A DNA stretch of 61,771 nucleotides, taken from an uncultured Flavobacteriaceae bacterium. GTDB lineage: Bacteria > Bacteroidota > Bacteroidia > Flavobacteriales > Flavobacteriaceae. The notes beneath the pieces were generated by a model. That model saw nothing but the letters and a program-made list of their open reading frames with translations. It was not told the origin of the DNA and did not search any database. Positions 34,587-49,482 of this stretch are shown here, piece after piece. Location: assembly GCA_905480425.1 (NCBI GenBank), contig CAJQQG010000060.1, forward strand, positions 1 to 61,771, written 5' to 3'. A program made the position numbers and the translations under genes. The stretch's first letter is position 1. Each line of letters starts with the position of its first letter.

Positions 34587-35688
34587 ATGATTTCAAACGA
34601 GCAATACAAACATATAATGGAACGCCTGATTGCCTTAAGGCAATATCTTTGACATTGATGCCAAAGATATTGAAATTAAAAACCAAGAAGAAAAAACTTT
34701 AGCTCCAGATTTTTGGAGTAATGCCTTAAAAGCGGAACTTCATATGAAAGGTTTAAGGAATCTCAAAAAATGGGTGACAGATTACAATAAAATTATTCAA
34801 GAATCTGAAGACCTTGAAGTACTCATGGAATTTGTTAAATCAGGAGAAGTTACTGGTAAGGAAGTTGAAGCTCAATATTATCATATCGAACAACTTTTAG
34901 AAGCAATTGAATTCAGAAACATGCTTTCCGATGAAGGAGATGATTTAAGTGCAGTACTTCAAATTACTGCTGGTGCAGGTGGGACTGAAAGTTGTGACTG
35001 GGCCGCCATGCTTATGCGTATGTATTTAATGTGGTCTGAAAAACAAGGATATAAAGTTAAAGAACTTAATCACCAAGCTGGTGAAGTTACTGGAATAAAA
35101 ACTGTGACTATAGAAATAGAAGGATCCTACGCTTTTGGATGGCTTAAAGGAGAAAACGGAGTGCACCGATTAGTTCGTATATCACCTTTTGATACAAATT
35201 CTAAACGCCACACATCATTTGCGTCCGTTTATGTTTATCCGCTTGTAGATGATAGTATTGAAATTATGATTAACCCTTCAGAGTATAGTTGGGAAACAAT
35301 GCGTTCTAGTGGTGCAGGAGGACAAAATGTTAATAAAGTAGAAACAGCCGTTCGTTTAAGACATCAACCAACAGGAATTGTTATTGAGAATTCTGAAACT
35401 CGTTCTCAATTAGAAAATAAAAATAAAGCAATGCAATTATTGCGCTCACAATTATATGAATTAGAGCTTCAGAAAAAATTAGCCGCAAGAGATGAAATTG
35501 AAGCCTCTAAGAAAAAAATTGAATGGGGATCTCAAATTAGAAATTATGTAATGCACCCCTATAAATTAGTAAAAGATGTTAGAACACAACATGAAGTTAC
35601 AGATGTTGATGCAATAATGAACGGGCAGATAGATCCGTTTTTAAAAGCTTATTTAATGAGTATGGGACAAAAAGATTTAGCCAAATAA
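34587..35688 (+). CDS. prfB: Peptide chain release factor 2, with programmed +1 frameshift
   Basis: Reads UGA and UAA stop codons and triggers release. The gene starts at ATG 34587. After 21 codons it meets an in-frame TGA (34650-34652), then continues in the +1 frame from GAC at 34651. Joined, the product is 366 residues, the normal RF2 length. The first frame encodes MISNEQYKHIMERLIALRQYL and the second continues DIDAKDIEIKNQEEKT. Release features are intact: SPF recognition tripeptide in RISPFDTNSKRH and GGQ in SSGAGGQNVNK. The frameshift is autoregulatory: low RF2 favours slippage at CTT TGA. It should not be annotated from the internal ATG 34744 or as a pseudogene. Confidence 0.95.
34637..34653 (+). 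promoter_or_regulatory. prfB: prfB +1 recoding site with weakened Shine-Dalgarno element
   Basis: AAGGCAATATCTTTGAC: slippery CTT, stop TGA and a following C are as in other bacteria. The usual AGGGGG three bases before CTT is reduced here to AAGG six bases before it. Confidence 0.85.
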
Positions 35689-46920: not shown

Positions 46921-46993
46921 GATTCGGTAGCTCAGTTGGTAGAGCATCTCCCTTTTAAGGAGAGGGTCCTGGGTTCGAGCCCCAGCCGAATCA
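46921..46993 (+). tRNA. tRNA-Lys (TTT)
   Basis: A 73-base cloverleaf. Acceptor stem GATTCGG pairs with CCGAATC; the anticodon loop CTTTTAA places TTT at the reading position; the T loop GTTCGAGCC is standard. The discriminator is A, and CCA is not encoded. It is the first of three tRNAs in a row. Confidence 0.97.
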
Positions 46994-46999
46994 CTAACT

Positions 47000-47072
47000 G
47001 ACTTGGTAGCTCAGCTGGTAGAGCATCTCCCTTTTAAGGAGAGGGTCCTGGGTTCGAACCCCAGCCAAGTCA
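47000..47072 (+). tRNA. tRNA-Lys (TTT), second copy
   Basis: Almost identical to the copy just upstream in D, anticodon and T arms, with the same TTT anticodon. The acceptor stem differs (GACTTGG/CCAAGTC), with both strands changed so that pairing is kept. There are also single changes in the D and T loops. CCA is not encoded. Confidence 0.97.
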
Positions 47073-47081
47073 CTTAATCTA

Positions 47082-47165
47082 GCGCACGTGGCGGAATTGG
47101 TAGACGCGCCAGCTTGAGGGGCTGGTGGGAGCAATCCCGTGGAAGTTCGAGTCTTCTCGTGCGCA
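47082..47165 (+). tRNA. tRNA-Leu (GAG)
   Basis: An 84-base class II tRNA. Acceptor GCGCACG pairs with CGTGCGC; the anticodon loop CTTGAGG has GAG, reading CUC and CUU. A long variable arm (TGGGAGCAATCCCGT region) is present, as expected for leucine. CCA is not encoded. Its end is only 11 bases before a promoter box of the MerR gene. Confidence 0.96.
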
Positions 47166-47175
47166 CTTTTTTCCC

Positions 47176-47183
47176 TACATTTG
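47176..47183 (+). promoter_or_regulatory. -7 promoter box for the MerR/carotenoid genes
   Basis: TACATTTG fits TAnnTTTG. It lies 28 bases before the MerR ATG. The -33 region would fall inside the tRNA-Leu 3' end and shows no TTG. Confidence 0.45.
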
Positions 47184-47211
47184 TTTAAGCTTTTAAATGA
47201 ATTTATAGACA

Positions 47212-48135
47212 ATGAACAGCATAAAAAGCAGTTTTAGCATAAAAAATCTTGAAAATTTCTCAGGTATTAAAGCACACACTTTAAGAATATGGGAAAAAAG
47301 ATATAATTTACTTGAGCCTGAAAGAACAGAGACTAACATAAGACGCTACAGTCTTGATAATCTCAAAAAACTTTTAAATGTTACCTTACTTTATAACCAC
47401 GGTTTTAAAATTTCAAAAATTTCTAGCTTAAGCAACGAAGAAATATCCGATTCAGTTAGTAGTATTGCTTTAAAATCAAATTCAGAACAAATAGCTATTA
47501 ACACTTTTAAATTAGCTATGATTAATTTTGATTGTGAATTGTTTAATAAAAATTATGATGAAATTCTTTCACATCAAAACTTTGAATATATCTTCATGGA
47601 TGTATTTATGCCGCTAATGAAAGAGCTTGGTATTTTGTGGCAAACTGGAGCTATTTCTCCTACCCATGAGCATTTTATCACTAATTTAATTAAACAAAAA
47701 ATTCATATTCAAACGGAAAGAGTTCAACGAAATATTAATAAAAATACAGAATATCCTATTTTTGTTTTATTTCTTCCTGAAAATGAAATTCATGAACTTG
47801 GAATTCTTTATTTAAATTATTTAACATTATCGAAAGGATTCAGAACAATTTTATTAGGTCAATCGATACAAATCTCAAGTTTAGAAAACCTGTATACTTA
47901 TGGAAATTCTTTTAATTTTATGACATACTTAACGGTAGAGCCAAATAAAAAAGAAATTATGCCTTATTTAAAAAGTTTTAATGAAAAATTACTTTTAAAT
48001 ACCAATTCAAAATTAATTGTTTTTGGACCACAACAAATAGAAATAGATTTAAATAACTTACCCAATAAAATTGAATTATACCGATCTGTTGAAACGTTTA
48101 TAAATAATTATTTTGAAGAAAAAATGTATGCTTAA
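47212..48135 (+). CDS. MerR-family regulator with CarH-like B12-binding domain
   Basis: A 307-residue DNA-binding regulator. The N-terminal winged helix (about 7-75; FSIKNLENFSGIKAHTLRIWEKRY) is MerR-type. Residues about 95-175 form the helical cap: Trp143, Glu153 and His154 reproduce the W-x9-E-H motif that contacts the adenosyl group in CarH. Residues about 182-300 are the cobalamin fold; His194 in NEIHELG fits the lower ligand of the E/DxHxxG motif. CarH represses carotenoid genes in the dark and lets go when light breaks its adenosyl-B12 bond. The next genes are crtB and crtZ, so a light switch for carotenoids is the natural inference. Confidence 0.9.
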   Translation: MNSIKSSFSIKNLENFSGIKAHTLRIWEKRYNLLEPERTETNIRRYSLDNLKKLLNVTLLYNHGFKISKISSLSNEEISDSVSSIALKSNSEQIAINTFKLAMINFDCELFNKNYDEILSHQNFEYIFMDVFMPLMKELGILWQTGAISPTHEHFITNLIKQKIHIQTERVQRNINKNTEYPIFVLFLPENEIHELGILYLNYLTLSKGFRTILLGQSIQISSLENLYTYGNSFNFMTYLTVEPNKKEIMPYLKSFNEKLLLNTNSKLIVFGPQQIEIDLNNLPNKIELYRSVETFINNYFEEKMYA

Positions 48136-48188
48136 ACTTCAAGTAATTTAAATTGTCAGAGATTATTTAAATCAATTATGTGAATTTT

Positions 48189-49028
48189 ATGAAAAAATTA
48201 TTTGATACTGTAAGTCAAGATTGTAGCCGATTAGTCACCAATGCATATAGCACATCTTTTTCATTAGCTACGAAAATGCTTGATGCGTCAATTAGAAATC
48301 ACATTTATAATATCTATGGATTTGTTCGATTTGCAGATGAAATTGTTGACAGTTTTCATAATCATAATAAAAAATATTTATTAGACAATTTTGAAGCTGA
48401 TCTATTCACTAGCATTAAAGATAAAATAAGTCTGAATCCAATATTAAACTCTTTTCAACTTACAGTAAACACATTTAAAATCGATCATGATCTCATAAAG
48501 GCATTTATGAAAAGTATGAGGTTGGACCTAGAGAAGAGCACTTATAAAACACAAGCTGAATATGAAGAATATATCTATGGTTCTGCTGATGTTGTTGGAC
48601 TTATGTGTTTAAAGGTTTTTGTTAAAGGAGATGAAAAAAAATTTAATAACCTTAAAAAACCAGCTATGGCACTGGGTTCAGCTTTTCAAAAAGTTAACTT
48701 TTTACGTGACTTAAAAGATGATTTTCAGGAATTAGAACGAAATTATTTCCCTAATGTAGATTTTAATAATTTCAATGAAAGTTCGAAACTGTTAATCATT
48801 AATGAAATTGAAACTGACTTTGAAACATCCCTTACTGGAATTTTAAAACTACCCAAAGAAGCTCGTTTTGGAGTTTATACAGCCTATAAATATTATTATA
48901 AATTGTTAGATATATTGAAAAAAACACCATCAATAAATATTCAAAACACAAGAATTCGAGTTGCTAATTATCAAAAAATGATCGTTTTTGTTCGTTGTTA
49001 TTTAAGATATAAATTAAACTTAACTTAA
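48189..49028 (+). CDS. crtB: Phytoene synthase
   Basis: Condenses two geranylgeranyl diphosphates to phytoene, the first carotenoid. The 279-residue protein has the two Asp-rich motifs: FADEIVD (Asp50 to Asp54) and NFLRDLKDDF. The squalene synthase family is related, but position next to crtZ supports CrtB. The ATG at 48189 is preferred to a GTG at 48180, since MKKLFDTVSQDCS matches family starts; an ATG at 48178 is followed at once by TGA. It is 53 bases after the MerR gene and 10 before crtZ. No phytoene desaturase (crtI) lies nearby. Confidence 0.93.
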   Translation: MKKLFDTVSQDCSRLVTNAYSTSFSLATKMLDASIRNHIYNIYGFVRFADEIVDSFHNHNKKYLLDNFEADLFTSIKDKISLNPILNSFQLTVNTFKIDHDLIKAFMKSMRLDLEKSTYKTQAEYEEYIYGSADVVGLMCLKVFVKGDEKKFNNLKKPAMALGSAFQKVNFLRDLKDDFQELERNYFPNVDFNNFNESSKLLIINEIETDFETSLTGILKLPKEARFGVYTAYKYYYKLLDILKKTPSINIQNTRIRVANYQKMIVFVRCYLRYKLNLT

Positions 49029-49038
49029 TCTATTGCTC

Positions 49039-49482
49039 ATGATATTACTTTGGATAGTCGTTCTTTTTACTACTTTTTGTTTTATGGAATTTATGGCTTG
49101 GTTTTCTCATAAATACATCATGCATGGCTTTCTGTGGTCACTTCATAAAGATCACCATATTAAGAATCACAAGTCATGGTTTGAACGAAATGATTTATTT
49201 TTTATTTTTTATGCACTTGTTAGCTCTGGTTTTGTTGTGCTATGGGGAGAAGCCGGGTTTTGGCCAGGATTACCGATAGCTATTGGGATTTTTCTCTATG
49301 GTCTTTCTTATTTTGTAGTACATGATATTTTTATTCATCAACGTTTTAAGCTTTTTAGAAATATTGAAAATAAATATGCAAAAGGAATTAGAAGAGCACA
49401 CAAAATTCACCATAAAAACATCAATAAAGGTGAAGGCGAATGCTTTGGAATGCTTTGGGTACCAATTAAGTATTTTAAATAA
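49039..49482 (+). CDS. crtZ: Beta-carotene hydroxylase
   Basis: A 147-residue membrane di-iron hydroxylase that adds 3-hydroxyls to beta-ionone rings, giving zeaxanthin. Four histidine clusters are visible: HKYIMHG, HKDHH, HDIFIHQR and RRAHKIHHKN, typical of the fatty acid hydroxylase/CrtZ family, with hydrophobic segments between them. An in-frame TTG at 49033 precedes the ATG at 49039. It ends directly against the convergent surA-like gene without any gap. Zeaxanthin is the common flavobacterial yellow pigment, so function in this pathway is likely. Confidence 0.93.
   Translation: MILLWIVVLFTTFCFMEFMAWFSHKYIMHGFLWSLHKDHHIKNHKSWFERNDLFFIFYALVSSGFVVLWGEAGFWPGLPIAIGIFLYGLSYFVVHDIFIHQRFKLFRNIENKYAKGIRRAHKIHHKNINKGEGECFGMLWVPIKYFK

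Follow-up and report, generated by a model that had tools for sequence, protein, structure and literature searches.

A CarH-like regulator and a candidate inverted-repeat operator point to joint light control of carotenoid and photolyase genes in Flavobacteriaceae

Contig CAJQQG010000060.1 (C60; 61,771 nucleotides, analyzed at its full length and called the window below) comes from the genome of an uncultured Flavobacteriaceae bacterium (assembly GCA_905480425.1) that is 85% complete and consists of 1.85 Mb in 79 contigs. Its closest named loci are from uncultured Flavobacteriaceae, such as a North Sea metagenome-assembled genome (MAG), and more distant ones include Candidatus Arcticimaribacter. 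The window encodes a MerR-type protein of 307 amino acids (positions 47212-48135, forward strand), followed by crtB and a crtZ-like gene. This protein is probably a flavobacterial variant of CarH/LitR, which in the dark would use adenosylcobalamin (AdoCbl) to repress both carH-crtB-crtZ and a photolyase cluster and would be released by light. The computed evidence comprises its motif residues and predicted fold, the operon, recurrent sites that co-occur with the regulator, and an adenosyltransferase in a genome where no methylmalonyl-CoA mutase was found and no class II ribonucleotide reductase scored above the cut-off.

Results

The regulator protein

The product matched the MerR_1 family (E 3.9e-12) and the B12-binding_2 cap, PF02607 (E 3.6e-11). 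Its MerR-type DNA-binding domain has an RxWERRY-like recognition helix, R25-I-W-E-K-R-Y31, which is invariant in an alignment of 36 sequences (A2). The same is true of Trp143, Glu153, His154, Glu192, and His194. W143, E153, and H154 make up the Wx9EH motif of the helical cap, and E192-I-H194-E-L-G197 agrees with the lower-axial histidine motif D/ExHx2G; an earlier note on this DNA, made from the sequence alone, had located the CarH signature residues Trp143, Glu153-His154, and His194 correctly. Wx9EH together with ExHxxG/S was present in 75/75 regulator open reading frames (ORFs) recovered from 80 named loci, the other five loci being left out since their regulator ORF was not recovered by the search pattern.

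Among solved structures, the best matches to the A2 profile were Thermus thermophilus CarH/LitR (TtCarH) entries 3whp and 5c8d, with E about 1e-14. An AlphaFold2 (AF2) model built from A2 (pLDDT 86.3, pTM 0.79) had full-length TtCarH, 5c8e_A, as its top solved match (Z 18.9 over 272 residues, with an rmsd of 11.1 because the domains are differently placed), and Foldseek likewise returned 5c8e (E 2.8e-12). Compared with the isolated TtCarH cobalamin domains, the model superposed over 196 residues at 2.2 Å. The cobalamin-binding fold is accordingly predicted to have both of its parts. In class II LitR proteins the B12 domain consists of its helical half alone, and CarA is missing the Trp of Wx9EH; here the Rossmann half is predicted by the model and Trp143 is present. 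Position 144, right after Trp143, is a Gln, where TtCarH has a His (His132). Because of this Gln, the bis-His state that is described for light-exposed TtCarH in the accessible part of PMC8156234 cannot arise here as it does there.

Candidate operator in relatives

Comparison of relatives yielded a candidate operator, new here, which consists of two inverted half-sites, TGTTTAAC-N14-GTTAAACA. Copies were found repeatedly in front of carH, in carH-crtI gaps, and ahead of photolyase-type clusters. Upstream of carH, 40/46 genomes, our own included, have TTTGTTTAAC with no more than one mismatch; in shuffled sequences the mean was 2.3 and the highest count 7. In 5 to 8 of these genomes the partner half-site recurs at +21, with the same tolerance. 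The motif TAnnTTTG, which we take to be the consensus of the flavobacterial -7 promoter element, lies directly at the half-site in 40/46 relatives, the own genome among them.

We then counted exact occurrences in 149 genomes, about one per genus. GTTTAAC-N14-GTTAAAC occurred at 87 sites in 59 genomes; the reversed pattern, used as a control, gave 23 sites in 19 genomes. All 59 genomes belong to the 132 that carry the regulator; the exact palindrome was found in 0/17 genomes counted as regulator-less, that is, with no match or one with E above 1e-6 (p=1.2e-4, the genomes being related to one another). Among 65 sites that deviate by no more than one letter, the positions flanking this first pattern were 96% T and 96% A, and the operator was therefore extended to the form given above.

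Thirty site loci were examined for their context. Fourteen sites were in carH-crtI intergenic regions, 12 preceded genes of photolyase-type clusters, 2 preceded a fasciclin-like gene, and 2 were left unclassified. The 12 cluster sites stood before a TetR-like gene (6), a 142-codon gene (5), or an SRPBCC-like gene (1), with photolyases or DPRP genes nearby in 9 cases. The stretches from G143 (L131, L170) and G002 (L145, L173) held the rest of the cluster without photolyase or DPRP genes, and G145 (L144) was judged from an unextended stretch.

The 75 named loci were scanned as well. Allowing at most 3 mismatches in 16 letters, 61 sites fell close to carH, within two zones each about 200 bp long (32.5 kb in total), and 4 in the other 584 kb. 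Nine of the 80 named loci share sequence with the genome set and are not independent of it; without them the counts were 54 versus 3, and 43/66 loci had a site near carH. In many named loci the second half-site coincides with the start of the gene itself (ATGAACA).

TnnACA, which is the unit that the DNA-binding domains of known CarH proteins contact (accessible parts of PMC8156234 and PMC9304148), is present in each half-site, and the two units are inverted and 24 bp apart. In 109 candidate sites, which were collected as palindromes, TnnACA was found at +24, as an inverted pair, in 96%, and at 11-bp phases in 0-1.8%. Since the 11-bp phases were not enriched, the tandem 11-bp direct repeats (nnnnTnnACAn) of the published operators are not seen at these sites.

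In three genera (G109, G041, and G103) the same palindrome as above stands before a gene divergent from a gene that, by its start, is mnmA-like (L161 6113-6140, L167 6246-6273, and L171 6462-6489). The L161 product has fasciclin domains. This divergent gene is a possible extra target.

Sites in the own genome and its clade

A matrix was built from the 109 sites, all of which come from other genomes, and applied to 113,658 own-genome positions (the window, L104, L118, and L196). The top rank went to the promoter of a photolyase cluster on another contig (G000:C8:20681-20710, about 30 bp before the first gene), with 22.7 bits, and the second to the carH promoter, with 7.35 bits. The latter candidate operator, TGTTTAAGCTTTTAAATGAATTTATAGACA at 47182-47211, has the core TGTnnA-N18-TnnACA, overlaps the putative -7 element TACATTTG (47176-47183, forward strand), which matches TAnnTTTG, and ends at the start codon of the regulator. 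We regard the photolyase-cluster site as strong and the carH site as weak, the latter resting on position and conservation. TGTTTA-N18-TnnACA occurred once in the window, at the carH promoter, versus 0.34 expected; because at least one match was found in 24/100 shuffles, the carH site is weak when taken by itself.

The photolyase cluster, which the earlier note had missed, is thus predicted to be the strongest target of the regulator. It consists of an SRPBCC-like gene (Pfam score below the cut-off), a 249-codon ORF, two DNA photolyases, a DPRP protein, a 504-codon ORF, and a DUF2805 gene. Judged by the starts of their L160 counterparts, the 249- and 504-codon ORFs resemble a short-chain dehydrogenase and an additional photolyase. 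A site with at most 2 mismatches precedes the photolyase cluster in 13 genomes: the own genome (G000), G277, G383, G151, G018, G337, G084, G364, G040, G214, G058, G156, and G120. No regulator was found in one of these, G214, which is 91% complete. No site was detected within 150 bp upstream of the listed ORFs at the DPRP loci of G057, G240, and G228 (the G228 piece may end too early), nor in the same range at those of the regulator-less G003, G158, G153, and G204. Two-mismatch sites were also found before an unrelated 98-codon ORF in G204 and before a flavin-reductase-like ORF in G356.

Two regions had been proposed by the earlier note as control regions. The one at 47166-47211 contains the candidate operator; the carH-crtB gap at 48136-48188 contains none, the best score within 48080-48200 being -10.1 bits, and control of crtB from this gap was rejected. 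The suggestion that the regulator might also act on a distant crtI found no support. For the own genome, an operator common to crtI and crtA, both detached from carH, was rejected as well, with -2.7 bits for the region upstream of crtI. For detached crtI genes in the clade, 0/13 rows had a site, and the best score within 150 bp upstream was 1.2 bits. For crtA, 1/13 rows had a site within 150 bp (G156, 19.0 bits). The crtI gene inside the carH cluster of G124 has an upstream site of 27.7 bits. Control of pigment formation would thus proceed via crtB and crtZ only, since crtI and crtA-crtI2-cruF have moved off carH without a recognizable operator. An operator at the adenosyltransferase gene or at the PF02310 locus of G120 was likewise sought, and none with at most 2 mismatches was present in L118-L121.

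Cofactor supply

The own genome has a cobalamin adenosyltransferase (PF01923) on contig C12 and no match to PF02310 or to methylmalonyl-CoA mutase, PF01642; at 85% completeness these absences are not proof. G120, a 98% complete genome of the same genus, has PF01923, no PF01642 match, and one PF02310 match, in a 910-codon frame of MetH size.

Out of 395 genomes, 30 had no PF01642 match and were classified as mutase-less (20 were listed directly and the other 10 were deduced by exclusion, the total being exactly 30). Eighteen of them carry the regulator (E below 1e-50) and 20 carry PF01923: 16 have both, 2 only the regulator, 4 only the adenosyltransferase, and 8 neither. The adenosyltransferase was therefore found in 16/18 mutase-less genomes with the regulator versus 4/12 without it (p=0.004), and, at the genus level, in 8/9 versus 2/7 (p=0.035).

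Class II ribonucleotide reductase (RNR) was considered as another reason for retaining the adenosyltransferase in a set of 37 genomes and was rejected. Only G124 and G100 scored above the cut-off, neither being mutase-less, and the count among the mutase-less genomes was 0/30. The seven genomes of this set that lie outside the 30 are G007, which is discussed below, and six with weak or partial mutase matches. G020, G216, and G338 have weak or partial matches, and no adenosyltransferase or regulator match better than 1e-5; G281 has a partial mutase and neither of the other two genes. G100 has a partial mutase, an adenosyltransferase, and a class II RNR without the regulator, and G124 has all four. 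G153, G195, and G325 have an adenosyltransferase without the regulator, methylmalonyl-CoA mutase, or a class II RNR above the cut-off. The search for AdoCbl users covered the mutase, PF02310, and class II RNR; because the adenosyltransferase is present, no mutase or PF02310 match was found, and no class II RNR scored above the cut-off, the regulator is the best candidate for the AdoCbl user of the own genome.

Gene neighborhood

The genes of the operon are all on the forward strand. The upstream boundary of the promoter region is a tRNA-Leu (gag) gene identified by ARAGORN (47082-47166, forward strand), the last of three tRNA genes, and the start codon of the regulator follows 45 bp after their end. 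A 53-bp gap separates the regulator from crtB (48189-49028; SQS_PSY, E 8.4e-43), whose ORF may start at an alternative GTG at 48180, and 10 bp separate crtB from the crtZ-like gene (49039-49482). The latter product had no match in Pfam or NCBIfam. It shares 42-43% identity, across 96-97% of its length, with Pantoea plasmid genes labeled sterol desaturase family (12 listed of 109 records), has four His motifs, read by eye, that presumably correspond to the CrtZ pattern, and is encoded at the same place in relatives. These findings agree with the earlier note, which had named the two downstream genes phytoene synthase and beta-carotene hydroxylase. A sigma-70 promoter scan gave 14 hits versus 16.5 expected, no more than chance, and is not informative here.

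The earlier note was also right that the interval lacks crtI: when the own genome was searched for the crtI family, all 6 matches fell outside the window contig. The gene is not lost, as it lies on another contig at G000:C25:20283-21749. A separate crtA-crtI2-cruF operon (G000:C25 15709-18516) is divergent from it, with two other genes in between. The names crtA and crtI2 are tentative and were assigned from position and similarity; the crtA-like product had only a weak Pfam match, to DUF3291. In 29 loci, chosen and not random, crtI directly follows carH in 18 and the order is carH-crtB-crtZ in 11. These 11, which do not include the window, are the own clade (genera g1, g151, g19, g85, g59, and g156). 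A contig labeled as a Rhizobium sp. MAG (L290) holds a flavobacterial-type carH locus, so that its bin or label looks wrong.

Elsewhere in the window, the tRNA-Leu and the regulator are preceded by a tandem pair of nearly identical tRNA-Lys (ttt) genes (46921-47073). The ORF at 34744-35688, by eye, resembles release factor 2 and apparently lacks the N-terminal part, perhaps owing to the usual programmed frameshift.

Discussion

In the proposed mechanism, AdoCbl would sit in the dark between the helical cap (W143, E153, and H154) and the Rossmann part (H194). The AdoCbl-loaded dimer, or a higher oligomer, would bind the promoter-overlapping inverted repeat, and both the own operon and the photolyase/cryptochrome cluster would be repressed. 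In the light, the Co-C bond would be broken, the protein would leave the DNA, and the entry and end steps of pigment formation would be induced together with the photolyases. We infer the binding of these sites and of AdoCbl by the protein and its release by light. The earlier note's view of a CarH-like regulator of crtB and crtZ is supported by the protein's residues and predicted fold, by the operon and its promoter site, and by the cofactor supply; a response to AdoCbl and light is probable.

Several observations weigh against this interpretation. On the protein side, the remainder of the classic B12 motif (SxT/V, GG) differs, with Thr for Ser and G-P at the likely place of GG, which was assigned by eye. 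The regulator scored 58.2 bits (E 7.5e-16) with the NCBIfam CarH equivalog NF052513, whose cut-off is 400. PF02310 gave no match to it and only weak ones in 5/36 relatives (best E 0.013); both halves of the cobalamin domain are predicted all the same, because the AF2 model matches the TtCarH domains. On the DNA side, the candidate operator is an inverted repeat, unlike the tandem direct repeats of published CarH operators (accessible parts of PMC8156234 and PMC9304148). No exact site was found in 73/132 genomes with the regulator, and no site near carH, at up to 3 mismatches, in 26/75 named loci. The p values overstate independence because the genomes are related. In the own genome, the carH site scores only 1.1 bits above the best unrelated position (6.2 bits). 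In several close relatives it is decayed or gone (L002, -11.4 bits; L032 and L220, -13.8 bits; L218, -4.5 bits; L225, -12.7 bits; L226, -13.9 bits). As to the cofactor, the mutase-less G057 and G240 keep the regulator and its motif residues (L061 and L062) without PF01923 or PF02572. G007 has the regulator and the mutase and neither adenosyltransferase family, and G153, G195, G325, and G214 have an adenosyltransferase and no regulator that was found. The RNR profile matched 34/37 genomes, 32 of them below the cut-off (at most 343 bits versus 400; 323.6 in the own genome); these matches, the own one included, were taken for class I enzymes. Judged strictly by motif and operator, the protein is not a canonical CarH and is best described as working like CarH.

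A BtuR-type adenosyltransferase was tried as an answer for G057, G240, and G007 and rejected, with 0/37 genomes above the cut-off. The bacteria with the small genomes G057 and G240 may rely on AdoCbl uptake, or the system may be disappearing from them.

The same protein-side differences, PF02310 unrecognized and GG lost, would suit a B12-independent relative such as Myxococcus xanthus CarA or the Pseudomonas class II LitR proteins, which would repress the same sites and receive light through another signal or partner, the B12 residues being structural remnants. G057 and G240, which keep the protein without a detected adenosyltransferase, favor it too, as do the class II LitR repressors, whose targets are phrB, cryB, and further light-inducible genes and one of which, PmlR2, was shown to have a LOV partner (accessible part of PMC9758184). 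Against it stand the presence of Wx9EH in all 75 relatives, the Trp of which is missing in CarA (accessible part of PMC9304148), the predicted Rossmann half, lacking in class II, and the way the adenosyltransferase tracks the regulator in mutase-less genomes. We consider this explanation unlikely. Rather less improbable, and partly overlapping with our preferred interpretation, is that the photolyase cluster is the sole target here, with the own-promoter site a relic and crtB and crtZ expressed constitutively. The difference between 7.3 and 22.7 bits and the decay of the carH site in several sister genomes speak for this, whereas the intact TGTnnA-N18-TnnACA core in the own carH promoter, placed as in relatives, speaks against it. 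The least credible of the three is that the inverted repeat belongs to another regulator, such as the TetR-like protein whose gene comes first in many photolyase clusters, and that the CarH-like protein binds elsewhere or only at its own promoter. Many such clusters do begin with a TetR_C_23 protein (one example was scanned), and the site often lies just upstream of the TetR-like gene. However, many sites adjoin carH, the site is absent from 17/17 regulator-less genomes, the half-site TAAACA fits the CarH unit TnnACA, and photolyase clusters of the own clade start with an SRPBCC-like gene and keep the site.

A CarH-like, light-released repressor of both gene groups remains our preferred explanation. 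Going further, we tentatively propose that Flavobacteriaceae might have a CarH class of their own, in which a symmetric dimer on a palindrome would govern one sunlight regulon of carotenoid and photolyase genes. Streamlined marine members might then keep the adenosyltransferase only to charge the sensor, AdoCbl being a light signal and not an enzyme cofactor.

The shared sites suggest joint control of pigment genes and genes for the repair of sunlight-damaged DNA; such control would account for the way in which these bacteria prepare for sunlight. In the flavobacterium Chryseobacterium lacus, light is reported to induce pigmentation (PMC7064467); the accessible text of that article leaves the mechanism open and offers the speculation that a hypothetical gene next to crtB may have a CarA/LitR-like role. 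In Flavobacteriia with proteorhodopsin, photolyase genes are enriched, and the accessible part of PMC5932025 names no regulator for them. Our literature search, which covered few subscription journals, found no study of flavobacterial CarH or its operator. With the regulator in 132/149 genomes and a precise candidate operator, exact in 59, light control of pigmentation and photolyases becomes testable, and the cultured genera Winogradskyella, Zobellia, and Algibacter carry the regulator. The preferred explanation predicts a flavobacterial light response that depends on B12 supply and, if true, would show CarH-type domains acting on an inverted repeat.

Among known systems, the crt cluster of Nonlabens spongiae likewise begins with a MerR gene and includes crtI, crtB, and crtZ (PMC11855829); the accessible text of that article contains neither regulatory work nor the word CarH. 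TtCarH (5c8d/5c8e) shares with the protein described here the MerR domain, the Wx9EH helical cap, and the Rossmann domain with its axial His, and its gene adjoins phytoene synthase and also a photolyase gene (L053). It differs in that the identity in the structural alignment is 17%, that Gln replaces His132 after the Trp and GG is lost here, and that the candidate operator is an inverted TnnACA pair without 11-bp tandem repeats. The AdoCbl-dependent dimer CarH_Cfu of Cystobacter shows that dark-state dimers are workable; it requires tandem direct repeats, unlike the inverted repeat found here (accessible part of PMC9304148). The Pseudomonas class II LitR proteins PmlR2 and PplR are alike in being repressors tied to light-inducible photolyase, cryptochrome, and neighboring short-chain dehydrogenase genes (accessible part of PMC9758184). 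They are unlike the flavobacterial protein in having no Rossmann half, in receiving the light signal from a LOV protein (PmlR2), and in using the operator TGTACA-N12-TGTACA.

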